A stretch of DNA of 64,000 nt. Origin: Oscillospiraceae bacterium. GTDB taxonomy: Bacteria; Bacillota; Clostridia; Oscillospirales; Ruminococcaceae. The notes beneath the pieces were generated by a model that was not told where the DNA came from, ran no database searches, and saw only the letters and a program-made list of their open reading frames with translations. This document shows positions 12,862 through 23,180 of the stretch, piece after piece. Position numbers and translations under genes: made by a program. The stretch covers positions 1 through 64,000 of the forward strand of contig JAJQGT010000011.1 of the NCBI GenBank assembly GCA_021201135.1, read 5' to 3'. How positions within the stretch are numbered: position 1 is the first letter of the stretch; each line of letters begins with the position of its first letter.

Positions 12862-13740
12862 CTATTCGATATTCTGAATCTGTTCTCTTATCTTTTCGAC
12901 CGCACTCTTGAGCTCGACGACGATTTTTGTTATCGTAAGGTCGGAGCACTTGGAGCCGGTGGTATTTATCTCTCTGTTTATCTCCTGAACGAGGAAGTCA
13001 AGCTTCTTGCCGATTGGCTCGGTTTCGTCAAGCAGTTCGCGGAATGCGGCGATATGGCTGTGGAGCCTTACCGTCTCTTCATCGACAGCTGTTTTGTCGG
13101 CGAAGATTGCGGTTTCGGTGAGGATTCTCGCCTCGTCGATATTCTTGCCGTCAAGGACCTCCTGAAGCCTCTGATAGAGCCTCTTCTGATACTCTTCCGT
13201 AACAGTGGGAGAACGCTTTTCTATCTCGCATACCATTGCTTCGATACTGTCAAGCTTCACCAAAATATCGGCTTTCAGGCGTGCGCCCTCGGCTTCTCTC
13301 ATAGCTACAAAGCCGTTCAGAGCTTCCGTTGCCACCTCGGAGACCTCCTGCCAGATTTCGTTTTCGTCGGTTTCCTGCTTGGTAACGGTGAAGATATCCG
13401 GAATTCTGAAAAGCTGAGAAAGTGTCAAATCGTCGCGGAGCCCGAGCTCTGTTCCCGCAGTGCGAAGAGCATTGATATAATTCTTTGCAAGTTCACTGTT
13501 TACGTTTACGTTCACATCGGAGCCGTCGGTTGTATTGATTGTTATATATGATTCAACCTTGCCGCGGTTGATTTCTGCGGCATAAAGGGCTTTCAGCTTG
13601 TCCTCGATAAAGGCGTACTGACGAGGGTATTTTGCGCTGAACTCGAAAAATCTGTGATTGACGGCACGAAGCTCAACGGTTATCTCGCGATTTCCGAATG
13701 TCTTCTTGGCTCGTCCGTAGCCGGTCATGCTTCTCGGCAT
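12862..13740 (-). CDS. yicC: YicC-family endoribonuclease
   Basis: YicC proteins are RNA-cleaving, stress-associated enzymes; the B. subtilis homologue is YloC. The 292-residue product starts PRSMTGYGRAK, the family hallmark, contains ELRAVNHRF and ends with KLDFLVQEINREINTTGSK and the terminal IREQIQNIE. It heads the long operon that ends at spoVM and has a promoter about 60 bp upstream. Confidence 0.95.
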   Translation of the reverse strand: MPRSMTGYGRAKKTFGNREITVELRAVNHRFFEFSAKYPRQYAFIEDKLKALYAAEINRGKVESYITINTTDGSDVNVNVNSELAKNYINALRTAGTELGLRDDLTLSQLFRIPDIFTVTKQETDENEIWQEVSEVATEALNGFVAMREAEGARLKADILVKLDSIEAMVCEIEKRSPTVTEEYQKRLYQRLQEVLDGKNIDEARILTETAIFADKTAVDEETVRLHSHIAAFRELLDETEPIGKKLDFLVQEINREINTTGSKCSDLTITKIVVELKSAVEKIREQIQNIE

Positions 13741-13802
13741 CCATATTACCTCTTTTCGTTTATATTACAGTAGGCACACTGCGCTACATTACTATCTATG
13801 CT

Positions 13803-13831
13803 ATTATAGCACCTTTTGCGATTTAGTGCAA
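13803..13831 (-). promoter_or_regulatory. Promoter of the yicC-to-spoVM operon
   Basis: Minus-strand TATAAT (13803-13808) has an extended -10 TG one base upstream; the -35 at 13826-13831 is a poor TTGCAC at 17 bp. It is divergent from the promoter of the HD gene. Confidence 0.65.
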
Positions 13832-13872
13832 GGTCTTTGGGCTCGAAAATCTATTACAGTTTGGAAACATAG

Positions 13873-13901
13873 TTGAAATCGTCGGGAATTTATGATACAA
13901 T
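13873..13901 (+). promoter_or_regulatory. Promoter of the HD-domain gene
   Basis: TTGAAA (13873-13878), 17-bp spacer, TACAAT (13896-13901), about 33 bp before the GTG start. Confidence 0.75.
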
Positions 13902-13933
13902 CAGGATAGCGAAATTACGGGAGGAAAGCAAAA

Positions 13934-14545
13934 GTGACTTTAGATGCACAGGAATATAAGAACAGATTCATAGAGATTTACACCGGAAATATCAAGCGCG
14001 AGGGCTCGGAGAAGCTTCTTGAATATCTTCAATCAAAAAACTGCGACTTCTTCACTGCTCCGGCTTCGACGAGGTTTCACAACTCCTTCGAGGGTGGACT
14101 CTGCGAGCACTCCATCAACGTTTATGAGTGCCTGAAATCCTATCTCGAGACGGACAGAGCGAAAAGCTTCGGGCTTTCGTTCAGCGACGAGTCGATTGCT
14201 ATCGTTGCGCTTCTGCACGATGTATGCAAGACGAATACATACGTCGTAAGCATGCGAAACGTCAAGAACGACAAGACGGGACAATGGGAGAAGGTTCCCT
14301 ATTACGAATATAACGACACCCTCCCCTATGGTCACGGCGAGAAGTCGGTATATATCGTTTCGGGGTTTATGAAGCTCACCCGGGACGAGGCTATGGCTAT
14401 CAGATGGCACATGGGCTTCTCGATGGGTGAGGACACAAGGCTTGTCGGAAATGCTCTCCGGGATTATCCGTTGGCACAGGCTCTCAACATTGCTGACGCC
14501 GAGGCGACGAACTTTATCGAGGAGAAGCGAAACAAGTCGAAATAA
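13934..14545 (+). CDS. HD-domain phosphohydrolase of unknown substrate
   Basis: A 203-residue soluble protein with the HD metal-binding pattern: a histidine in LCEHSINVYE (about 57-66) and HD in LLHDVCKTN (about 94-102), plus later H and D residues (YGHGEKS and DAEA). HD hydrolases act on nucleotides or phosphodiesters; the arrangement resembles the HD half of YhaM-like proteins, but there is no nucleic-acid-binding OB domain. It starts at a GTG with GGGAGGAAAG upstream. It is a lone plus-strand gene with its own promoter and terminator, so the context gives no pathway. Confidence 0.8.
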   Translation: MTLDAQEYKNRFIEIYTGNIKREGSEKLLEYLQSKNCDFFTAPASTRFHNSFEGGLCEHSINVYECLKSYLETDRAKSFGLSFSDESIAIVALLHDVCKTNTYVVSMRNVKNDKTGQWEKVPYYEYNDTLPYGHGEKSVYIVSGFMKLTRDEAMAIRWHMGFSMGEDTRLVGNALRDYPLAQALNIADAEATNFIEEKRNKSK

Positions 14546-14550
14546 AAAAC

Positions 14551-14573
14551 AGCGGAGTGGTTTTCACTCCGCT
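14551..14573. terminator. Bidirectional terminator between the HD gene and degV
   Basis: AGCGGAGT and ACTCCGCT form an 8-bp perfect stem with a short loop. It is followed by TTAATTTTTT on the plus strand and preceded by AAAAAA, so it can stop both convergent transcripts. Confidence 0.85.
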
Positions 14574-14585
14574 TTAATTTTTTAT

Positions 14586-15467
14586 TCAGTGTCTGTCTCC
14601 CCAATGGATGACCACTGTCATTCCGGGTCCGACATGAGCGCCGATTACCGGTCCGATGTCGGTGATTCCGATGGTGAAATTAGGATAGAGCTCTTTCAGC
14701 TCGTTGCGGATTTCCTCGGCGGCTGTCAGGTTGTCGGCATGTCCGATGAGGATAAATGTGCCGATATCGGGACGAATCGACTTCTTGACGTCCTCGATGA
14801 GAGCGGCGGTTGCCTGCTTGCGTCCGCGGGGCTTGGCTATTGTCTGGAGCTTGCCTTCGTCGTCGAGCGTGAGAAGTGGCTTGACCTGCAGGACTGTACC
14901 CATTGCGGCGGTTGCACCCGAAACTCTTCCGCCACGCTTGAGATGCTCGAAGGTATCGACGGTTAACCAGTGGCAGACATGGTATTTATGCTCTTCAATC
15001 CATGCAAGGAACTCGTCCATGCTCAGTCCTGTTCTCATCTCTTTAATCGCCTCGTAAAGGAGGAAGCCCTGACCGAGAGAAGCGTCGAACGGGTCTACTA
15101 TCTCAATTCTGCGGTCGGGATACTGCTCCGAAAGATTCCTTGCGGCAACCCTTGAAGCGTTCAAGGTCTGCGAAAGACCGGATGTAATACCTATGTAGAC
15201 AATATCGTTGCCTTTTTGAAGCTCCGGCTCGAAAAACTCTTCGTAGACCTCGGGGTTAATCTGGGAAGTCGAAGCGAAAAGTCCGCTCCTCAGCTTTTGG
15301 TAAAACTCTTCGATGGTTATTGTTCCGTCGCCGTTGTAGCTGTAGACATAGCCTTCGTCACCAACAGTGATGTTCATGGGGACGAAGGTGACCTCGGAAA
15401 GCTCCTCAATCATCTCTTTGGTTATATCACAGGTGACGTCTGAAAATACTTTATAATTGTTTGCCAT
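14586..15467 (-). CDS. DegV-family fatty-acid-binding protein
   Basis: DegV/FakB proteins bind a fatty acid and present it to fatty acid kinase FakA. The 293-residue product shows SDVTCDIT at the start, the binding loop GITSGLSQT, DTFEHLKRGGR (family DNL-YLKKGGR) and near the end GPVIGAHVGPGM. It follows asnS by 14 nt and has AAGGAGG before the ATG. No fakA is present in the window; the lipid substrate cannot be read from sequence. Confidence 0.93.
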   Translation of the reverse strand: MANNYKVFSDVTCDITKEMIEELSEVTFVPMNITVGDEGYVYSYNGDGTITIEEFYQKLRSGLFASTSQINPEVYEEFFEPELQKGNDIVYIGITSGLSQTLNASRVAARNLSEQYPDRRIEIVDPFDASLGQGFLLYEAIKEMRTGLSMDEFLAWIEEHKYHVCHWLTVDTFEHLKRGGRVSGATAAMGTVLQVKPLLTLDDEGKLQTIAKPRGRKQATAALIEDVKKSIRPDIGTFILIGHADNLTAAEEIRNELKELYPNFTIGITDIGPVIGAHVGPGMTVVIHWGDRH

Positions 15468-15481
15468 TGTTTCCTCCTTGT

Positions 15482-16873
15482 TCAGAATTTAAGACTCTTG
15501 GGTGTTCTTGCGTATGGGATGACGTCGCGGATGTTCGAGACGCCGGTTATATACATAAGGATTCTTTCGAGACCGAGACCGAAGCCGGAATGAACGACTC
15601 CGCCGTATTTACGAAGATCCAAATACCACTCGAGGGTGCTTCTGTCCATGTTCATGTCTTCCATCTTCTTGACAAGAACATCGAAGTTCTCTTCACGCTG
15701 AGAGCCGCCCATGAGCTCTCCTACGCCCGGAGCAAGCAAATCGCATGCCGCAACCGTCTTGCCGTCGGGGTTGAGCTTCATATAGAACGCCTTGATGTCC
15801 TTCGGGAAATCTATCAGGAAGACGGGACCCTTTGCGACTTTATCGCAGATATAGACCTCGTGCTCCTTGAAGAAGTCCATGCCCCACTCGACGGGGTTCT
15901 CAAACTGAACATCCGCATGCTGGAGATAGTCGACCGCCTCGGTGTAGGTGATGACCTTGAAGTCGGAGTTCATGACGTGCTCAAGCTTATCAATCAGATC
16001 ATGCTTTTCGGAGACGAAATCGTTCAGGAACTTCATTTCGTCGGGACAGCTTTCCAGAACATCTTTTATGATATACTTGACGAGAGCTTCCATAACTGCC
16101 ATATCGCCCTTGAGGTCGCAGAATGCCATCTCAGGCTCTACCATCCAGAACTCATTGAGGTGATAGGGGGTGTTGGAGTTCTCGGCGCGGAAGGTCGGTC
16201 CGAAGGTATATACCTTGCCGAGAGCCAATGCGAACGGCTCGACATGGAGCTGACCCGAAACGGTCAGGCAGGCGTGCTTGCCGAAGAAATCGTTCTGATA
16301 ATCGCCATCCTCACGGGTGGTGACGGTGAAGGTCTCGCCGGCACCCTCGGCATCATTGCCGGTGATGAGGGGCGTATGGATATAGCTGAAGCCGTTCTCG
16401 CGGAAGAACTGGTGAATCGACTGGGAGACTATCGAGCGGATTTTGAAGACCGCCATGAATGTATTTGTTCTGGGTCTGAGGTGCGGAATCTCTCTTAAGA
16501 ATTCGAGAGAATGGCGCTTTTTCTGCAAGGGATAGCTCGCATCGCAGGCGCCGAGAAGAGCAATCTCGCTCGCGTTAATCTCGAAGGGCTGTTTTGCCTC
16601 GGGAGTGTGGATAAGCTTGCCGGTGACGCTGACGGCACAGCCGGTCAGGAGCTTCGAAATCTCGGCATAGTTCGGAAGCTTTTCAGCCTCATAGACCACC
16701 TGGCAATTAGTGAAGCAGGAGCCGTCGTTAAGAGAAATGAAGCCGATGTTATTATTCGAGCGGTTGGTTCTCATCCAGCCCTCGACGGTGACAGTCGCCC
16801 CATCGGCGGCGTTATCATTCGGCAAAAGCCCCTTCACGCTCTTATATATCTCATCAATCAGAAGTTTTGGCAT
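15482..16873 (-). CDS. asnS: Asparaginyl-tRNA synthetase
   Basis: Class II synthetase that charges tRNA-Asn. The 463-residue protein has the N-terminal OB anticodon-binding domain (about 1-120), motif 2 FRAENSNTPYHLNEF and motif 3 GFGLGLERILMYITG, with the AsnRS-type end IRDVIPYARTP. There is no room for a T-box leader; a plain promoter lies about 40 bp upstream. Confidence 0.97.
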   Translation of the reverse strand: MPKLLIDEIYKSVKGLLPNDNAADGATVTVEGWMRTNRSNNNIGFISLNDGSCFTNCQVVYEAEKLPNYAEISKLLTGCAVSVTGKLIHTPEAKQPFEINASEIALLGACDASYPLQKKRHSLEFLREIPHLRPRTNTFMAVFKIRSIVSQSIHQFFRENGFSYIHTPLITGNDAEGAGETFTVTTREDGDYQNDFFGKHACLTVSGQLHVEPFALALGKVYTFGPTFRAENSNTPYHLNEFWMVEPEMAFCDLKGDMAVMEALVKYIIKDVLESCPDEMKFLNDFVSEKHDLIDKLEHVMNSDFKVITYTEAVDYLQHADVQFENPVEWGMDFFKEHEVYICDKVAKGPVFLIDFPKDIKAFYMKLNPDGKTVAACDLLAPGVGELMGGSQREENFDVLVKKMEDMNMDRSTLEWYLDLRKYGGVVHSGFGLGLERILMYITGVSNIRDVIPYARTPKSLKF

Positions 16874-16908
16874 AGCATGCGTCCCCTTTGTAAATTATAA
16901 CTCTGTTT

Positions 16909-16937
16909 ATGATAAACCTTTTAGGGGAAATTGTCAA
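16909..16937 (-). promoter_or_regulatory. asnS promoter
   Basis: Minus-strand TTGACA (16932-16937), 17-bp spacer, TATCAT (16909-16914). It begins just after the terminator of the first surface-protein gene. Confidence 0.8.
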
Positions 16938-16953
16938 GAGCTTGGACAGAAAA

Positions 16954-16980
16954 AGACCGCAAGCGGTTAGCTCACGGTCT
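16954..16980 (-). terminator. Terminator of surface-protein gene 1
   Basis: On the minus strand AGACCGTGAGC pairs with GCTTGCGGTCT (11 bp with two G-U pairs), then TTTTTC. The same AAGACCGC arm recurs in the terminators of the next three transcription units. Confidence 0.85.
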
Positions 16981-17002
16981 TGGTCGGTGAATTCGTGTGG
17001 AA

Positions 17003-17713
17003 TTATCTTCTCTTAGAAGAAACTACAGCGATGCCAGCGATTGCCATCGGAACGAGAGCAAGTGCAACACCGGTGTCAGGAGAAGAAGCGGTAGAAGTCT
17101 CAGTAGACTCAGAAGCCTCCTCAGTGGTCTCCTCAGAAGCGTTGACATCCTCAACAGCCTCTTCCTCAGTAGTCTCAGGAACTACGATAGAAACATTAAT
17201 TATGTTGTAAGCCTTGTCCTCAGAGCAGTTATTAACGATGATAACATTAGCTCCGTCAACATTGAAGCCGCCAGCAACCAAAGCTTCTGCAACTTCTGCG
17301 CCATCCCACATAACAGTCATGCCGTCGTCATAGACACAGTCAATAATACCATTGCCTGTCTCCATTTCACTAGTATGACCAGCAGTACCAAGGAAGACAA
17401 ACTGCAAGCCGCTTTCAACGTCAACTCCCTGCCACCAAGAATTGAGAACTGCGAACTTCTCATAAGCTCCGCCATCTTCGTACTGGATATGAGTCTCAGT
17501 ATCCTTTGTGATTACAAGACGAGCACCCTCAGTCTGAAGAGCTTCGATGAACTCAGTCATAGTGCCAGACTCGAGTTCATACTGCTGCCAACCATCGAGA
17601 GGATAGAAGAATACAGTATCTTCATCCCAAAGATACAGGTCATCAGCAAAAGCGACAACGCTGACAGAAAGAACCATGACTATCGCCAAAGCGATTGACA
17701 ATACTTTTTTCAT
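17003..17713 (-). CDS. Secreted surface protein 1 with C-terminal SPDTG sorting signal
   Basis: The 236-residue product has a signal peptide (about 1-23, cleavage after AFA), a globular part (about 24-180), a Thr/Glu/Ser-rich stalk (about 183-210) and a C-terminal sorting-type signal: SPDTG, a hydrophobic stretch and KRR. The layout is that of a sortase-anchored wall protein, although SPDTG differs from LPxTG and no sortase is in the window. The ectodomain (GWQQYELESG, EALQTEGARLVI) is distantly similar to that of surface protein 3. I do not recognise the domain. It has a consensus promoter and a palindromic leader shared with two paralogues. Confidence 0.85.
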   Translation of the reverse strand: MKKVLSIALAIVMVLSVSVVAFADDLYLWDEDTVFFYPLDGWQQYELESGTMTEFIEALQTEGARLVITKDTETHIQYEDGGAYEKFAVLNSWWQGVDVESGLQFVFLGTAGHTSEMETGNGIIDCVYDDGMTVMWDGAEVAEALVAGGFNVDGANVIIVNNCSEDKAYNIINVSIVVPETTEEEAVEDVNASEETTEEASESTETSTASSPDTGVALALVPMAIAGIAVVSSKRR

Positions 17714-17725
17714 TTGTGAATTCCT

Positions 17726-17741
17726 CCAAAATATATTTTGG
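17726..17741 (-). promoter_or_regulatory. Leader palindrome CCAAAATATATTTTGG, copy 1
   Basis: A perfect 16-bp inverted repeat whose final GG is the first part of the GGAGG ribosome-binding site of surface protein 1. Identical copies lie before surface proteins 2 and 3. Confidence 0.8.
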
Positions 17742-17757
17742 TGTTAAAACCATATCT

Positions 17758-17786
17758 ATGATAACACACCAACTCGGATTTGTCAA
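17758..17786 (-). promoter_or_regulatory. Promoter of surface-protein gene 1
   Basis: Minus-strand TTGACA (17781-17786), 17-bp spacer, TATCAT (17758-17763). Confidence 0.85.
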
Positions 17787-17830
17787 TAAATATCCGGGCT
17801 TTTGGAAAAATTTTTTTGGTGGGAAAGAAA

Positions 17831-17857
17831 AAGACCGCAGGGTCAGTTTGCGGTCTT
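17831..17857. terminator. Terminator at the end of the PIN/antitoxin pair, overlapping the coding end
   Basis: AAGACCGCA (17831-17839) pairs with TGCGGTCTT (17849-17857). T-runs flank both sides, so it can act in both directions. The promoter-proximal arm on the minus strand encodes the last residues (KTAN) of the 71-residue protein. Confidence 0.8.
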
Positions 17858-18058
17858 TTTTCTGTTTGCCATAATCCTTGCTATTATTTCTTCACGACTC
17901 GGTTCGGGCTTTTCGTATTTTTCTTTGGTATAATCACCTGAACCCTGACAACACTCCTGCATGAAACGAATTGCGTTATCTACACCGAGAGCTTCCTTCA
18001 AAGCTGTATAACCTGCAATTCTAAGTTCTACAGTATCACTATAATTTACCTTTGCCAT
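17843..18058 (-). CDS. Small 71-residue protein coupled to a PIN toxin, probable antitoxin
   Basis: The product begins MAKVNYSDTVELRIAGY and continues with a helical region containing EALGVDNAIRFMQECCQG, then a charged tail rich in Lys and Glu (EKYEKPEPSREEIIARIM). The ATG shares one base with the stop of the upstream PIN gene (TGATG) and has GGAGGAG upstream, so the two are translationally coupled. A longer start at 18079 has no support. I do not recognise a DNA-binding fold with confidence; the antitoxin role is inferred from the partner. Confidence 0.7.
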   Translation of the reverse strand: MAKVNYSDTVELRIAGYTALKEALGVDNAIRFMQECCQGSGDYTKEKYEKPEPSREEIIARIMANRKKTAN

Positions 18059-18510
18059 CACGAATCTCCTCCATTCCAATATCGGTTAATATAATCCGTT
18101 GGATTCATAACTTTTACTCTTAAATCTATCCTCGAAGCCATCTTTATGAGCCTGTAATCAGTAGTCAACATAACCTCTGCACTCGTTTCCTCGGCACATG
18201 CAATATGAAAACTATCATAGACATGGATATTTGATTGTGCTTGAATTTGAGCTGAGCGCAAATCCACACTATCATTAAATTTGACTATTTCATCAACAAC
18301 GTAATAGTCATCAAGAATCCGCCTTCTTTTAGCAGAATCACTTATACAACCTATTTCATCATTTAACGCTTCGCTACCTACTATAGATATGAGTCCCAGA
18401 CCATGCAACTCATAAATAGTTAAAATTGCATCAATCTCCGCTCGCACTTGTTCTTGGGTGGAATCATCGAACAACCGACAATAGCAACAACAATCCAGAT
18501 AGACTTTCAC
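18058..18510 (-). CDS. PIN-domain ribonuclease, probable VapC-like toxin
   Basis: PIN domains are small RNases held by an acidic cluster. The 150-residue protein shows the pattern at Asp6 (VYLDCCCYCR), Glu47, Asp99 (VYDSFHIACA) and Asp118 (LTTDYRLI). It begins at GTG. Unlike most VapBC modules, the toxin gene comes first and the putative antitoxin second. The coding DNA is visibly richer in A and T than the flanking core genes, suggesting acquisition. A palindromic operator candidate sits between its -10 and start. Confidence 0.8.
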   Translation of the reverse strand: MKVYLDCCCYCRLFDDSTQEQVRAEIDAILTIYELHGLGLISIVGSEALNDEIGCISDSAKRRRILDDYYVVDEIVKFNDSVDLRSAQIQAQSNIHVYDSFHIACAEETSAEVMLTTDYRLIKMASRIDLRVKVMNPTDYINRYWNGGDS

Positions 18511-18520
18511 AACAACACCG

Positions 18521-18538
18521 CCTATAAATTTATATAGG
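18521..18538 (-). promoter_or_regulatory. Candidate operator of the PIN/antitoxin pair
   Basis: The inverted repeat CCTATA-N6-TATAGG lies between the -10 box and the GTG start, the usual place for autorepression by a toxin-antitoxin complex. Confidence 0.5.
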
Positions 18539-18557
18539 TGAAACTAACTCTGATAGT

Positions 18558-18586
18558 ATTATATCACAAAATTCACGGAATGGCAA
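18558..18586 (-). promoter_or_regulatory. Promoter of the PIN/antitoxin pair
   Basis: Minus-strand TTGCCA (18581-18586), 17-bp spacer, TATAAT (18558-18563) with an extended -10 TG. Confidence 0.8.
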
Positions 18587-18604
18587 TAGCCAATTTAAAG
18601 AAAA

Positions 18605-18630
18605 AGACCGCAGGCATGCACCTACGGTCT
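18605..18630 (-). terminator. Terminator of surface-protein gene 2
   Basis: AGACCG and CGGTCT arms with an extended imperfect stem (AGGCAUGCACCU region), followed by TTTTT on the minus strand; same outer stem as the neighbouring terminators. Confidence 0.8.
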
Positions 18631-18649
18631 TTTGGAAATCAATCAGTGA

Positions 18650-19276
18650 TTATCTCTTCTTGGAACCTACAACAGCGATACCTGCGATTGCCATCGGAAC
18701 GAGGGCAAGTGCAACACCGGTGGAAGGAGAAGTGGTAGTGGTGGCAGTGGTCTCTTCAGCTTCCTCGGTGGTCTCCTCGGTAGCTTCCTCAGTAGCCTCA
18801 GCCTCTTCGGTCTCATCAGTGGTCTCTTCGGTCTCAGCAGCAGCTGCATCAGCAGAAGTGGAAACTACAGCAACACCGGTAAGAGTTGCATCCCAACCAT
18901 CAGCCCACCAGTTAAGAACGATACCGTCAGCAACATCGTAACCAGCAGCAGTGAAAGCATCAGCAATTACAGTAAGCGGAATGCTGATAACGCCATCTTC
19001 GTTAAGAGCGTAGGAAGCATCTGTTTCATTGGATATGATATTAGTCCAACCGGCATCGCAGAGAGCGAAAGGTCCCCAACCAACATAGCTGGAATCACCC
19101 AAGGTGAAGTAGATTTCGAGAGAAAGGCTCTCATCGGTGAAATCAACACCATCGGTGCAAGTAAGGGTTGCGGAAGCTGAGATAGACTCAGAAGCGATTG
19201 TAGTGTCAGCAAATGCAACGACGCTCAAGGAGAGAACCATTACAAGTGCAACAGCGATTGATAAGAATTTCTTCAT
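18650..19276 (-). CDS. Secreted surface protein 2 with C-terminal SPSTG sorting signal
   Basis: The 208-residue product starts MKKFLSIAVALVM with a signal peptide ending at about residue 24 (VVAFA). A beta-rich domain of about 120 residues with WGPFALCDAGW and NWWADGWDATLTG follows; tryptophans in such strands are reminiscent of carbohydrate-binding modules, but I cannot name a family. A long Glu/Thr/Ala stalk leads to SPSTG, a hydrophobic segment and SKKR. The start is fixed by GGAGG after the shared palindrome; an upstream ATG at 19402 lies before the promoter and is not used. The ectodomain differs from those of surface proteins 1 and 3. Confidence 0.85.
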   Translation of the reverse strand: MKKFLSIAVALVMVLSLSVVAFADTTIASESISASATLTCTDGVDFTDESLSLEIYFTLGDSSYVGWGPFALCDAGWTNIISNETDASYALNEDGVISIPLTVIADAFTAAGYDVADGIVLNWWADGWDATLTGVAVVSTSADAAAAETEETTDETEEAEATEEATEETTEEAEETTATTTTSPSTGVALALVPMAIAGIAVVGSKKR

Positions 19277-19287
19277 TTCGAATTCCT

Positions 19288-19303
19288 CCAAAATATATTT
19301 TGG
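19288..19303 (-). promoter_or_regulatory. Leader palindrome CCAAAATATATTTTGG, copy 2
   Basis: Identical to copies 1 and 3 and again fused to the GGAGG site. Confidence 0.8.
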
Positions 19304-19318
19304 TTTAAAACCTCTATT

Positions 19319-19347
19319 ATCATACCACCATATCTCGTGTTTGTCAA
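19319..19347 (-). promoter_or_regulatory. Promoter of surface-protein gene 2
   Basis: Minus-strand TTGACA (19342-19347), 17-bp spacer, TATGAT (19319-19324). Confidence 0.85.
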
Positions 19348-19413
19348 CCGAAAAATCGAAATTTACCTCAAATTTACACAAACCCCTCCCCCACCGGCTC
19401 ACGCCAAAGAAAA

Positions 19414-19439
19414 AGACCGCAAGCAGAAGCTCACGGTCT
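19414..19439 (-). terminator. Terminator of surface-protein gene 3
   Basis: On the minus strand AGACCGTGAGC pairs with GCTTGCGGTCT around a four-base loop, then TTTTTC; nearly the same stem as at 16954-16980. Confidence 0.85.
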
Positions 19440-19460
19440 TAATCTATGACAGAAAAGTGA

Positions 19461-20195
19461 TTATCTTCTCTTGGAAGAAACTACAGCGATACCTGCGATT
19501 GCCATCGGAACGAGGGCAAGTGCAACACCGGTGTCAGGAGAAGAAGCAGTGGTGGTCTCGGTGGACTCAGTGGTCTCTTCAGTAGCATCGGAAGCATCCT
19601 CAGCCTCCTCGGTGGTCTCTTCGGTGGTCTCTTCTGCTACAGCAGTAGTGATTACATAAACGCCATAGGTCTTAGCGCCAGAGCAAGCACCGTTGATCCA
19701 CTTCCAAGTGCAGGTGGTGATGTCGTCGCCATGCTCAGCCATAAGAGCTACGAACTCAGCAGCATCAATGATGATGTAAGAATAGTCGCCTTCGACGACA
19801 ACATCCTCAGCAGCCATCAAGTAGGTGGTGTCTGAAGAAGGCTCTTCGTCAGGATAGTTGAAGTGTGCAAGGTAGAGCTGCCATGAATCGTTGGTCTGAA
19901 TACCATACTGATAGCCATAGCCATCCTCGTCAGAACCCGCGATAGCATCTGCCTTGACAATAATCTTAGCACCTTCAGTAGTAATAGCTTCTACGAAAGC
20001 AACGCCATCATCAGTAGAGCTGGAAAGATCCGCATCTTCATTCCACCAGCCGTTGTCCATCGGGAAGAGAACGGTATACTCAGAAAGGACCTCAGAAGCT
20101 ACGCTATTGATATAATCATCATCAACAGCAAAAACGGAAATGCTTACAGAAAGCATCATGACAATCGCCAAAGCGATTGATACAAATTTTTTCAT
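19461..20195 (-). CDS. Secreted surface protein 3 with C-terminal SPDTG sorting signal
   Basis: The 244-residue product has a signal peptide (MKKFVSIALAIVM to about residue 23), an ectodomain of about 160 residues that resembles surface protein 1 (GWWNEDADLSSS, EAITTEGAKIIVK, a Trp-containing SWQLYL strand), a Thr/Glu stalk and the C-terminal SPDTG-hydrophobic-KRR signal. The last 26 residues are identical to those of surface protein 1, and the DNA there is nearly identical too, while the ectodomains have diverged strongly. The function is unknown. Confidence 0.85.
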   Translation of the reverse strand: MKKFVSIALAIVMMLSVSISVFAVDDDYINSVASEVLSEYTVLFPMDNGWWNEDADLSSSTDDGVAFVEAITTEGAKIIVKADAIAGSDEDGYGYQYGIQTNDSWQLYLAHFNYPDEEPSSDTTYLMAAEDVVVEGDYSYIIIDAAEFVALMAEHGDDITTCTWKWINGACSGAKTYGVYVITTAVAEETTEETTEEAEDASDATEETTESTETTTASSPDTGVALALVPMAIAGIAVVSSKRR

Positions 20196-20205
20196 TTGAA
20201 TTCCT

Positions 20206-20221
20206 CCAAAATATATTTTGG
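20206..20221 (-). promoter_or_regulatory. Leader palindrome CCAAAATATATTTTGG, copy 3
   Basis: Identical to the other two copies, directly before the ribosome-binding site of surface protein 3. Confidence 0.8.
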
Positions 20222-20236
20222 TATAAAACCATATCT

Positions 20237-20265
20237 ATCATAGCACCAAATCGCTGATTTGTCAA
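20237..20265 (-). promoter_or_regulatory. Promoter of surface-protein gene 3
   Basis: Minus-strand TTGACA (20260-20265), 17-bp spacer, TATGAT (20237-20242). Confidence 0.85.
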
Positions 20266-20361: not shown

Positions 20362-20646
20362 ATGACTATGAGATTTGTATGGGACGAGAACAAAAACATG
20401 ATAAACAAAGAGAAGCATGGCATCTCGTTTGAGGTAGCTTCACTTGTTTTTAACGACCCCTACTACATTGAGATGTACGACTTCGAGCACAGTATAGATG
20501 AAGACAGATATATGGCAATCGGCAAAGTGGAAGAAATACTCTTTGTCGTATTCACCGAGCGAAAGGAATCAATAAGATTGATTTCCGCCAGAATTGCAAA
20601 CCCAACCGAAAGGAGACTTTATTATGACCAGAACAGTAACTCTTGA
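20362..20646 (+). CDS. brnT: BrnT-family (DUF497) ribonuclease toxin
   Basis: BrnT is a RelE-like ribonuclease toxin. The 94-residue product has the family opening FVWDENKNMINKEKHGISFE (W-D--KN--N--KHG-SF), the central DEDRYMAIG and the late segment IRLISARIANPTERR, where the catalytic Arg and the RR--Y motif lie (ERRLYY). Either ATG at 20362 or 20368 could start it. The antitoxin gene overlaps its end. Confidence 0.9.
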   Translation: MTMRFVWDENKNMINKEKHGISFEVASLVFNDPYYIEMYDFEHSIDEDRYMAIGKVEEILFVVFTERKESIRLISARIANPTERRLYYDQNSNS

Positions 20647-20815
20647 AGAACTACCGCCGTTGACTGACGAGCAGAGAGAGGAAATCAGGGCGGCGGCAAA
20701 GAAGCCGATTACGTTCGATGAAGACTGCCCGGAGCTTTCGCCGGCAATGATAAAGGCTTTTGAGTGCTCTGTGGCGCAGAGAAACAGACGGATGGCACCG
20801 AGAAAACAAGCATGA
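20624..20815 (+). CDS. brnA: BrnA-like antitoxin
   Basis: The 63-residue product starts MTRTVTLEELPPLTDEQ and contains ITFDEDCPELSPAMIKAF, the P-D-D-x-P-LS pattern seen in BrnA-type antitoxins encoded after BrnT. The ATG at 20624 has AAAGGAGA upstream and lies inside the toxin gene, giving a 23-nt overlap. The longer upstream ATG at 20594 lacks a ribosome-binding site. DNA-binding by a ribbon-helix-helix fold is the family expectation, not visible directly here. Confidence 0.8.
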   Translation: MTRTVTLEELPPLTDEQREEIRAAAKKPITFDEDCPELSPAMIKAFECSVAQRNRRMAPRKQA

Positions 20816-20859: not shown

Positions 20860-22014
20860 CTATGACTTCGAAGCCGCAAGGTCGATGAGGCTCCAGTAGG
20901 CGGATTTGAGCTTATAGTCGCGGTCGATGAGCAAGGGGTAGTTTACTCTGCCGGAGACGGGGTAGCCGTTGAGCCATGACATGCCGTCGTTGTAGCCCCA
21001 CATTACAACCGAATCGAGATAGCCCGCCTCGGAGAACTCGATGAACATCTCGAAGATGTCCGAATAGAGGCTGTCGAACTTTTCGACAAACTCGTCAGTG
21101 AGCTCAATGTCGGTGGATGAATCGCTCCACGAATAACAGCTGACGTCAAGCTCGGTGATTTCGATGACGAAGTCGGGGTCGATTTCTTTTAATCTCATGA
21201 GGATTTCGACGTTATTTTTGCAGGTCTCGACGTCGAAGTCGATGTCGATGTGCATCTGAAGTCCTATGCCGTCAATCGGAACCCCCTCTTCGAGCATGCT
21301 CTTGACCATCATGTACATGGTGATGGTGCGGTCCTCCGACCATTCGAGGTTGTAATCGTTGATGATGAGACGGGCGTCGGGGTCGGCTTCGTGAGCTGTT
21401 TCAAAGGCGATTTCGATGTAGTCGTATTTGTCGCCGTCGCCGTCATAGTCGCCGATAATCTGGTACCACATGGAATCGCGGAGCCCGCCGTTGTCGCCGA
21501 GAACTTCGTTGACGACGTCCCAGACATCGACTTCGCCCTTGTAGTGGCTGACGATGGTGGTGATGTGCTCTTTCATCCGCTCGACAAGGACGTCCGCTGA
21601 AACGGTGTTGCCATCTTCGTCGTAGAAGAACCAGTCAGGGCACTGTGAGTGCCAGACGAGGACGTGCCCACGGACTGTTTTGTCGTACTCATTGGCGAAT
21701 TCGACGAGCTTGTCCAGAGCTTCGAAGTTATAAACATCCTCGGAAGGATGAATATTCTCGGGCTTTGACTCGTTCTCGAGGGTGAAAACGTTGTACTGCT
21801 TGATAAGGATTTCCATCTCCTCGGAGCCTTCCACAAGGTCGCTCGTGTTCATGGCAGTTCCGACCTTGAACCACTCGGAAAAGGCTTCATATAGCGAAGG
21901 GGCTTCCTCGTCATAGGCGTACAGGTCGGGATGCGAAGTGCTTCCGCATGATGTCAAAGCCGTTGCCGATATAGCAAACGCTATGACTGCGGAAAGGATT
22001 CTTTTCAGCTTCAT
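20860..22014 (-). CDS. Lipoprotein endo-1,4-beta-xylanase, GH10
   Basis: Cleaves internal bonds in xylan. The 384-residue product has a lipoprotein signal with a lipobox ending at Cys23 (ALTSC), so it is probably tethered to the outer face of the membrane. The GH10 barrel shows the WHSQ motif (121-124), the acid/base Glu170 in WDVVNE and the nucleophile Glu288 in ITELDV; the WGYNDG segment near the end is also typical. No carbohydrate-binding module or dockerin is attached. It is the last gene of the run that begins with pcrA and sits 26 nt after the DUF3810 gene. Confidence 0.95.
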   Translation of the reverse strand: MKLKRILSAVIAFAISATALTSCGSTSHPDLYAYDEEAPSLYEAFSEWFKVGTAMNTSDLVEGSEEMEILIKQYNVFTLENESKPENIHPSEDVYNFEALDKLVEFANEYDKTVRGHVLVWHSQCPDWFFYDEDGNTVSADVLVERMKEHITTIVSHYKGEVDVWDVVNEVLGDNGGLRDSMWYQIIGDYDGDGDKYDYIEIAFETAHEADPDARLIINDYNLEWSEDRTITMYMMVKSMLEEGVPIDGIGLQMHIDIDFDVETCKNNVEILMRLKEIDPDFVIEITELDVSCYSWSDSSTDIELTDEFVEKFDSLYSDIFEMFIEFSEAGYLDSVVMWGYNDGMSWLNGYPVSGRVNYPLLIDRDYKLKSAYWSLIDLAASKS

Positions 22015-22040: not shown

Positions 22041-23180
22041 TCAGATGGTGCCTCCCGCGGCGTAGTAGTCCATCAGGAGCTTGGTGACTTTGTAATAGAT
22101 TTCGATGCCCTCTTCGACATCGTTGAACTTAAGGCTAGCCTCCGTCAAGGCTTCCGAGACAGCCTGAACCGTTTCGGTCGGGATTATCTCTTTATCTTCA
22201 TTCTCTTCCCAATAGGTGGATTTGAAGGAGTAGAGGTCGTAGTCCCAGACCTCCGACGGGACGTTTGCGATGGCTTCGCGAAGGGCGTCTTCATAGGAGG
22301 TGCCGATGAGCTCCTTGGCGTCTGAATAGAGATAGTAGAAAGCATCCACAAGCCCGCTGTAGCGGACGGCGGCGCAGTCGGAGTTGAAGCAGGCGACCAT
22401 GGCGACAAAGCTCGCTTCGTCCTCCTGAATTATGCCCTTGAGGTGGGCAAGCTCGTGGCAGATGGTCGATGGCTTCGAGATGTCCTGCGGGTCACGGTTG
22501 TATGTGGCCTCAAATGCAAACGGGATATACAAGCCGATGATGCTCTCCTGAGACATGAAGTAGGAGAAAAAGATGCCCTTGGGATTCGGGTAATATCCCG
22601 AAAGCTGAGAATAATCTTCGGAGATTGACGTGAGAGCTTCCTTGCATTCGTCTATGTAATCATCATCAAGCACTATGTAGCCGTCGTCTCCCCTGTCGAA
22701 CTCCGAGCATAAATCCGCCAAACCGTCAGCAACGGCTCCGATTGTCTCGATAAGTAATTCTTCTGTGTGCTCTGTCTCTTCGAAATATCTTTCCGAGAAC
22801 GGTGTGCACTGGTACATTATGAAGCAGTTTGTGGTTTCGGTCATCAGGACATAAGCAACTATCCATGCGACAAACCGGAGCGAAAAGCCGCTGATTTTTG
22901 AAGTGAGCTTCTTATCCTTGCGCTTCACTATCATAAAGATTATGTATACCGGCAAGCCGATGAGGACGAGAAGCACGGCAAGAACAATCATGACCTCGCC
23001 GACCGAGAACGGGAAGAGTCCCGACAGCCAGATGAACGGCGTCGAGATTACGGGATAGATTTTCTGAACGTAGAAGTCGGATATGGTCGTCGATAGTCGG
23101 GCGATTACGTTAAATAAAATCGCCAGAACAAAAGCGGCTATCAGTGCAATGTCGGATTTTTTGAGTTTACGTTTTTTCAT
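22041..23180 (-). CDS. DUF3810 membrane protein with a zinc-peptidase-like HExxH motif
   Basis: The 379-residue protein has three predicted N-terminal membrane segments (within about 10-120), then a soluble domain containing TICHELAHLKG followed by a downstream Glu-rich EDEASF. The HExxH plus glutamate pattern suggests a metallopeptidase fold; the family is uncharacterised. Its start shares one base with the stop of the cation-efflux gene (TGATG). The link with the neighbouring xylanase is position only. Confidence 0.85.
   Translation of the reverse strand: MKKRKLKKSDIALIAAFVLAILFNVIARLSTTISDFYVQKIYPVISTPFIWLSGLFPFSVGEVMIVLAVLLVLIGLPVYIIFMIVKRKDKKLTSKISGFSLRFVAWIVAYVLMTETTNCFIMYQCTPFSERYFEETEHTEELLIETIGAVADGLADLCSEFDRGDDGYIVLDDDYIDECKEALTSISEDYSQLSGYYPNPKGIFFSYFMSQESIIGLYIPFAFEATYNRDPQDISKPSTICHELAHLKGIIQEDEASFVAMVACFNSDCAAVRYSGLVDAFYYLYSDAKELIGTSYEDALREAIANVPSEVWDYDLYSFKSTYWEENEDKEIIPTETVQAVSEALTEASLKFNDVEEGIEIYYKVTKLLMDYYAAGGTI

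Follow-up and report, generated by a model that had tools for sequence, protein, structure and literature searches.

Exchangeable heads in a fixed gene frame

The window analyzed here, a stretch of 64,000 nucleotides from an Oscillospiraceae bacterium (assembly GCA_021201135.1, contig JAJQGT010000011.1, positions 1 to 64,000), encodes on its minus strand three small predicted surface proteins, which we term P1, P2 and P3. With a probability of roughly 0.75, these genes constitute a hypervariable and probably sortase-anchored display locus, wherein exchangeable heads are set in a fixed frame and passed on by homologous recombination via the conserved ends. Comparison with related genomes recovered the common frame, the head types, the fixed position of the locus, the replacement of heads between flanks that are about 95% identical, and purifying selection within head types. 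In the mechanism that we propose, each gene would comprise a strong promoter, a palindromic leader and a signal peptide on one side and a stalk, an SPxTG tail and a terminator on the other, with an exchangeable head of one of several discrete, conserved types seated inside this frame. Homologous recombination, acting through these conserved ends, would carry the heads between lineages and from one position to another, and a frequency-dependent pressure, exerted for instance by phages, protozoa, the immunity of the host or differences in substrate, might maintain their diversity.

Analysis of the translations showed that P1 (17003..17713; 236 amino acids (aa)) combines a signal peptide, an M1-type head, a Thr/Glu stalk and an SPDTG sorting tail. 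P2 (18650..19276; 208 aa when read from its MKKF start, the program-made list of open reading frames (ORFs) beginning further upstream at a GTG) has the same order of elements with an M2-type head and an SPSTG tail, and P3 (19461..20195; 244 aa) joins an M3-type head, a remote homolog of M1, to its signal peptide, stalk and SPDTG tail. These coordinates and features confirm what an earlier note on this DNA had proposed. The same note had pointed to identical ends of P1 and P3, and their last 26 residues are indeed the same (SPDTGVALALVPMAIAGIAVVSSKRR); over the final 81 coding bases ahead of the stop, DNA identity is 95% for P1/P3, 89% for P2/P3 and 84% for P1/P2, the C-terminus of P2 being SPSTGVALALVPMAIAGIAVVGSKKR. 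The further claim that the ectodomains of P1 and P3 have diverged and that of P2 is different also holds: two-sequence blastp comparisons recovered a remote homology between P1 and P3 (34% over 70 aa, E 3e-6) and no sequence-level relationship of P2 to the others (E 1.7). The likeness of the three genes extends upstream into the promoter and a 16-bp palindrome joined to the Shine-Dalgarno sequence. A degenerate tail pattern of 29 bases has exactly three matches in the 2.33 Mb genome, and a search of the relatives brought the number of tail genes to 34 in 11 genomes, window included. These 34 genes underlie the counts of heads, frames and trees; a gene at L092 that failed both filters was excluded from every count.

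Head exchange between genomes

In a tree built on AsnS, DegV and the homolog of the gene at 22041-23180, the window clusters with the related genomes L081, L088 and L089 (support 94/100), AsnS (15482..16873) and DegV being the names that we presume for these neighbors. Flanking DNA among these four genomes is 93.4-96.0% identical, with synonymous divergence (dS) in AsnS of 0.12-0.23. The heads of their AsnS-proximal genes show a DNA identity of 57-70% and a dS of 0.93-1.51, whereas the segments around these heads are conserved, with identities of 88-98% in the upstream regions, 94-99% in the signals and, in the three pairs without masked bases, 94-99% in the stalks and 96-99% in the tails (stalk, tail and downstream values of the L088 pairs were left out because of masked bases). 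A blastn comparison of the window with L089 gives 95.4% identity over 13501-17182, a gap across the P1 head, and alignment again from 17639, leaving the exchanged head (17183..17638, minus strand) unaligned between the conserved signal and stalk. By segment, this pair is 96% identical upstream, 94% in the signal, 58% in the head, 95% in the stalk and 96% in the tail.

For 11 of the 12 genes of the four close genomes the nearest head found lies in a genome with 83-87% flank identity, and in five of the 12 the DNA identity of the head exceeds that of the flank, as in gene g1 of L089, whose nearest head, in L084, is 93% identical against 84.5% for the flank. Other such pairs link g3 of L089 with G029 (88% aa identity), g3 of L088 with L087 (90%) and g3 of L081 with L082 (75%), the margin of the distant over the close genome being slim for g2 of L088 (74 vs 72% aa). 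Only P1 of the window departs from this pattern: the head closest to it (59% aa identity) sits at a different position in L081, so the donor of the P1 head lies outside the sample. In a tree of the 14 M1 heads among the 34 genes, a single clade of the four AsnS-proximal heads is rejected (lnL difference 277, approximately unbiased (AU) test p 2.9e-7), and vertical descent of these heads with it: those of L081 and L089 fall within a larger clade that includes L082 and G029, while those of the window and L088 fall outside. The genomes for this test were set by the flank tree, though their heads were already known beforehand.

Ten pairs of heads sharing a type, hand-picked from the list of nearest heads, have ratios of nonsynonymous to synonymous divergence (dN/dS) of 0.02-0.29, which indicates that selection within a head type is purifying. 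Eight of these pairs have AsnS data, with a dS of 0.26-0.66 in the heads and of 0.90-1.13 in AsnS. Codon bias could depress the dS of heads; yet codon adaptation values are similar for P1-P3 (0.68-0.73) and the AsnS-like gene (0.72). Given the low dN/dS, a head dS below that of AsnS and nearest heads in distant genomes, the head types look old, constrained and mobile.

A plain paralogous family that mutates fast at a fixed place, with no exchange between lineages, would also account for tandem paralogs, for the remote homology of the P1 and P3 heads and for the lack of significant homogenization of tails within genomes (see below). However, the sharp breaks in identity, with signal, stalk and tail at 94-99% against 57-70% for the heads, the heads that are 86-93% identical in DNA to those of genomes with flanks of about 84-85% (g1, g2 and g3 of L089; g3 of L088), the dN/dS values well under 1 and the AU test render this explanation improbable. 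Chimerism in the assembly or binning of metagenome contigs could in principle generate a mosaic, and the relatives with related loci are metagenome assemblies, of Oscillospiraceae or Ruminococcus sp. Nevertheless, the reading frames are intact in 11 genomes and built to one and the same frame logic, the contigs that carry related loci are 57-454 kb long, 10 of 11 including flanking sequence to either side, and the breakpoints match the signal and stalk borders, making such an artifact very improbable.

The earlier note had taken the shared tail of P1 and P3 as a sign of a recombining family of displayed proteins. Recombination stands strongly on the between-genome comparison, but the in-genome tail identity does not serve as evidence for it. 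The excess similarity of tails within genomes (0.025) is not significant, being reached by 128 of 2000 permutations on 29 genes, from which the AsnS-proximal gene of L088 and the G029 genes were omitted; and third positions in M1-M1 tail pairs are alike at 0.765 within genomes (3 pairs) and 0.821 between them (63 pairs). Thus, gene conversion of tails inside a genome was rejected as the main process.

Promoter, leader and terminator

Motif analysis, with coordinates by counting, identified a promoter-like element on the minus strand ahead of each gene: TTGACA-17-TATCAT for P1 (17758..17786) and TTGACA-17-TATGAT for both P2 (19319..19347) and P3 (20237..20265). The palindrome CCAAAATATATTTTGG follows, joined to the Shine-Dalgarno sequence of P1 at 17726..17741 and located at 19288..19303 ahead of P2 and at 20206..20221 ahead of P3 (all minus strand). 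A terminator-like GACCG..CGGTC repeat ends each of the genes; recognized by eye and unscored, with approximate ends, it takes the form GACCGTGAGC..GCGGTC plus a T run for P1 (16949..16981, minus strand) and of inverted repeats for P2 (18600..18634, minus strand) and P3 (19408..19442, minus strand). Allowing up to two mismatches, the palindrome with AGG occurs at three sites in the 2.33 Mb genome, one ahead of each gene, a fourth row of that search being the P1 site on the opposite strand.

The consensus promoter TTGAC(A/T)-17-TANNAT and the palindromic leader are present in all 34 tail genes. The spacer is 17 bp in every case, 16-18 having been allowed in the search, 33 genes have TTGACA and one has TTGACT as the -35 box, and the palindrome is exact in 29 and has one change in five. 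Its information content is 1.95 bits per base, against 0.82 for the promoter spacer and 1.01 for third positions of the signal; these values and the near-constant -35 box argue that leader and promoter are under strong selection. Each of the three leaders was folded at 25, 37 and 42 C, and in all nine structures the Shine-Dalgarno sequence starts with two mostly paired bases. The variants among the 34 leaders are of three kinds, two of which retain the RNA pair as G-U and one of which breaks it, and are too few to decide between a DNA operator and an mRNA hairpin. A genus-wide element was ruled out, as 11 of the 31 same-genus genomes searched have the locus marked by the palindrome; stray matches with one or two mismatches turned up in seven more genomes, two of which belong to the genus.

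Fold, novelty and possible roles of the heads

No Pfam family scored over the cut-off with P1-P3, in agreement with the earlier note, which had recognized no named family in the ectodomains. Pfam searches with 20 and 44 module copies recovered scattered matches only, with one of the 44 touching CBM_5_12 (E 0.068), and a search of PDB by sequence with the heads yielded nothing significant. The heads thus appear novel at the sequence level. An identity with carbohydrate-binding modules (CBMs) by sequence was ruled out on the Pfam and PDB results, a negative that leaves families absent from the structural listings unexcluded. AlphaFold models of the P1 (pLDDT 90.0) and P2 (pLDDT 96.7) heads are mainly beta, and the top structural rows for both include CBM86, CBM30, CBM65 and a module of Ruminococcus flavefaciens Cel5A (5fu2, 5aot). 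The heads are modeled as small beta-sandwiches that may share the CBM-type fold, a resemblance to CBMs at the level of fold only. Based on this likeness and the neighboring GH10 gene, we give the binding of glycans by the heads about an even chance; the role in host or substrate recognition that the note had suggested would be compatible with both.

This bears on a special case of the exchangeable display locus, namely that heads resembling CBMs hold the cell to plant polysaccharide near the GH10 enzyme, and that exchange partitions niches rather than providing escape from phages or immunity. The CBM and Cel5A modules among the best structural rows and the presence of GH10 at the locus border in nine of ten relatives speak for it, and we consider it a serious possibility, somewhat short of even odds. 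In a second special case, the heads are, or mask, receptors for phages or bacteriocins and switch types under predation. The discrete types, their horizontal replacement and the purifying selection within them accord with this, as does the precedent of SlpA cassettes in Clostridioides difficile, going by the excerpt of that study (PMC10100898). Codon adaptation places P3, P2 and P1 7th, 9th and 13th among 47 ORFs of the window, suggesting fair expression, but these ranks are merely suggestive, since the reference set of 31 ORFs from a ribosomal-protein region includes some that are spurious or not ribosomal. We hold this second case to be tentative, and clearly below even odds.

M1 and M2 heads also occur within longer proteins of the genus, of about 300-3050 aa, several of them with NPTTG tails, and two M1 copies lie inside such proteins in the genome of the window. 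M2 was detected in 7 of the 41 genomes searched, which include 24 of the 30 same-genus genomes. In the window's own genome a 1053-aa protein (L160:2479-5637, on C20) bears two M2-like heads in its outer part and has a protein kinase domain (E 8.8e-33) with a hydrophobic stretch after it. Proteins combining M2 and a kinase domain were confirmed in G002 and G020, and one in G006, unscanned, reads alike. Such Ser/Thr kinases are possible sensors of glycans or of the wall. One such kinase elsewhere (L163) carries BspA-like/DUF285 repeats. One more head type, the fourth (VSVDVSGIDTASSWDTYG... with its relatives), is absent from the window and found in g3 of L084, g3 of L087 and g2 of L165.

Anchoring and sortases

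The translations of P1-P3 display an N-terminal signal and, at the C-terminus, a PxTG motif, a hydrophobic stretch and a basic end, an arrangement shared with NF033846 (NPXTG-anchored) proteins and, as far as the excerpted source goes, with the SrtB substrates of C. difficile. Unlike NF033846 members, P1-P3 score below the cut-off of that model (P2 18.9, P1 16.4 and P3 16.4 bits; cut-off 23.5). A search for sortases in the same genome, as the note had advised, recovered eight Pfam Sortase matches over the cut-off, of which four are class C, two fall under every class cut-off and two, in tandem, are class B-like but below the model cut-off. In the excerpt of a study of C. difficile SrtB, a class B sortase, SPSTG is among the (S/P)PXTG peptides that the enzyme cleaves (PMC4155245), and SPxTG is by analogy a credible class B-type sorting signal, which in the window genome would be a putative assignment. 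From the signal peptide and tail we infer that P1-P3 are exposed at the surface; they are probably anchored covalently to the wall, perhaps by a class B-like sortase.

Comparison with known systems

In Streptococcus pyogenes, the mrp, emm and enn genes are adjacent and have conserved ends, and the M proteins are coiled coils. SlpA of C. difficile, a protein of the S-layer, lacks a sorting tail, and its types switch horizontally. The window locus shares with the emm region tandem paralogs with constant ends and variable outer parts, and exchange of these outer parts between lineages; with slpA it shares a surface protein in discrete types. It differs from emm in that the P1 and P2 heads are modeled as beta-sandwich domains rather than coiled coils, and in its occurrence in gut bacteria, its interleaved toxin-antitoxin genes and its palindromic leader; and it differs from slpA, with one gene per type, in comprising several small genes whose products carry a sorting tail. 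In the excerpts of the respective studies, the mrp-emm-enn region contains a family of at most three surface-protein genes of variable type, with genes flowing from strain to strain and recombination between emm and enn (PMC9993116), and S-layer cassette types govern phage susceptibility (PMC10100898). The best reading is that the locus works like the emm and SlpA-cassette loci and is a member of neither.

Pathogens are well known to exchange surface-protein types; for these uncultured Ruminococcus-like gut bacteria, the titles and abstract openings that our searches of open-licence PMC papers listed contained no report of it. The locus offers an easily typed marker and a set of sequence-novel heads for ligand screening. 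Because different heads occupy near-identical backgrounds, it also allows one to ask directly whether phage, substrate or host drives surface variation in commensals.

Locus layout and neighboring genes

The locus is bordered at low coordinates by the AsnS-like gene (15482..16873, minus strand) and at high coordinates by a GH10 gene with a lipobox-like signal (20860..22014, minus strand; PF00331, E 1.3e-87). Among the ten named related loci, AsnS and GH10 are each present in nine, DegV in eight and the homolog of 22041-23180 in all ten; the L083 contig ends inside the locus, before AsnS, and L081 is without GH10. Two to four tail genes lie between the borders in each genome. Of 30 other same-genus genomes, 29 have matches to P1, as against none of 29 genomes of other genera; many of these matches span the tail or signal only.

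Toxin-antitoxin-like genes sit among the surface genes, with copy numbers that vary across relatives. Between P1 and P2 there is a PIN-domain toxin-like gene (18058-18510; PF01850, E 9.4e-6, 26.7 bits vs a cut-off of 23.6) with a partner ORF (17843-18079), the pair occupying 17843..18510 on the minus strand. Beside P3 a BrnT toxin gene (20362-20646; PF04365, E 1.4e-26) and a partner ORF (20594-20815) occupy 20362..20815 on the plus strand; this partner has no Pfam match and is labeled BrnA from its position only. In the ten related loci, relatives of the PIN gene occur in seven, at one to three copies each; partner-like ORFs are present in eight, BrnA-position relatives in five and BrnT in one. 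A single further relative of the PIN gene (45% identity) lies in the window's own genome. These genes may stabilize the array. In a broader and, in our estimate, unlikely scheme, the genus as a whole would use a modular display, with sequence-novel heads as lineage-crossing cassettes, toxin-antitoxin pairs guarding a repeat-rich array against deletion, the palindrome setting a common dose or switch, and M2 doubling as the outer sensor of transmembrane Ser/Thr kinases, such that one set of heads serves both display and sensing.

Some further observations concern other surface proteins and sortases. Very large proteins with NPTTG/NPKTG tails (1033-3053 aa) are encoded at L071, L073, L059 and L061, with BspA-type LRR and InlB-B repeats in L061 and Cna-B repeats in L059. 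In multi-module proteins at L098, L094 and L112, a linker like IYVNEEYH..HTVDSNGYCTVCKEYIG, which has the look of a small zinc-ribbon-like hinge, precedes the M1 module. Finally, sortase genes form two pairs that closely resemble each other, each of a class C and an unassigned member, on different contigs (L006/L008 on C9, L007/L009 on C10), as if derived from a duplicated locus or from a second strain in the assembly.

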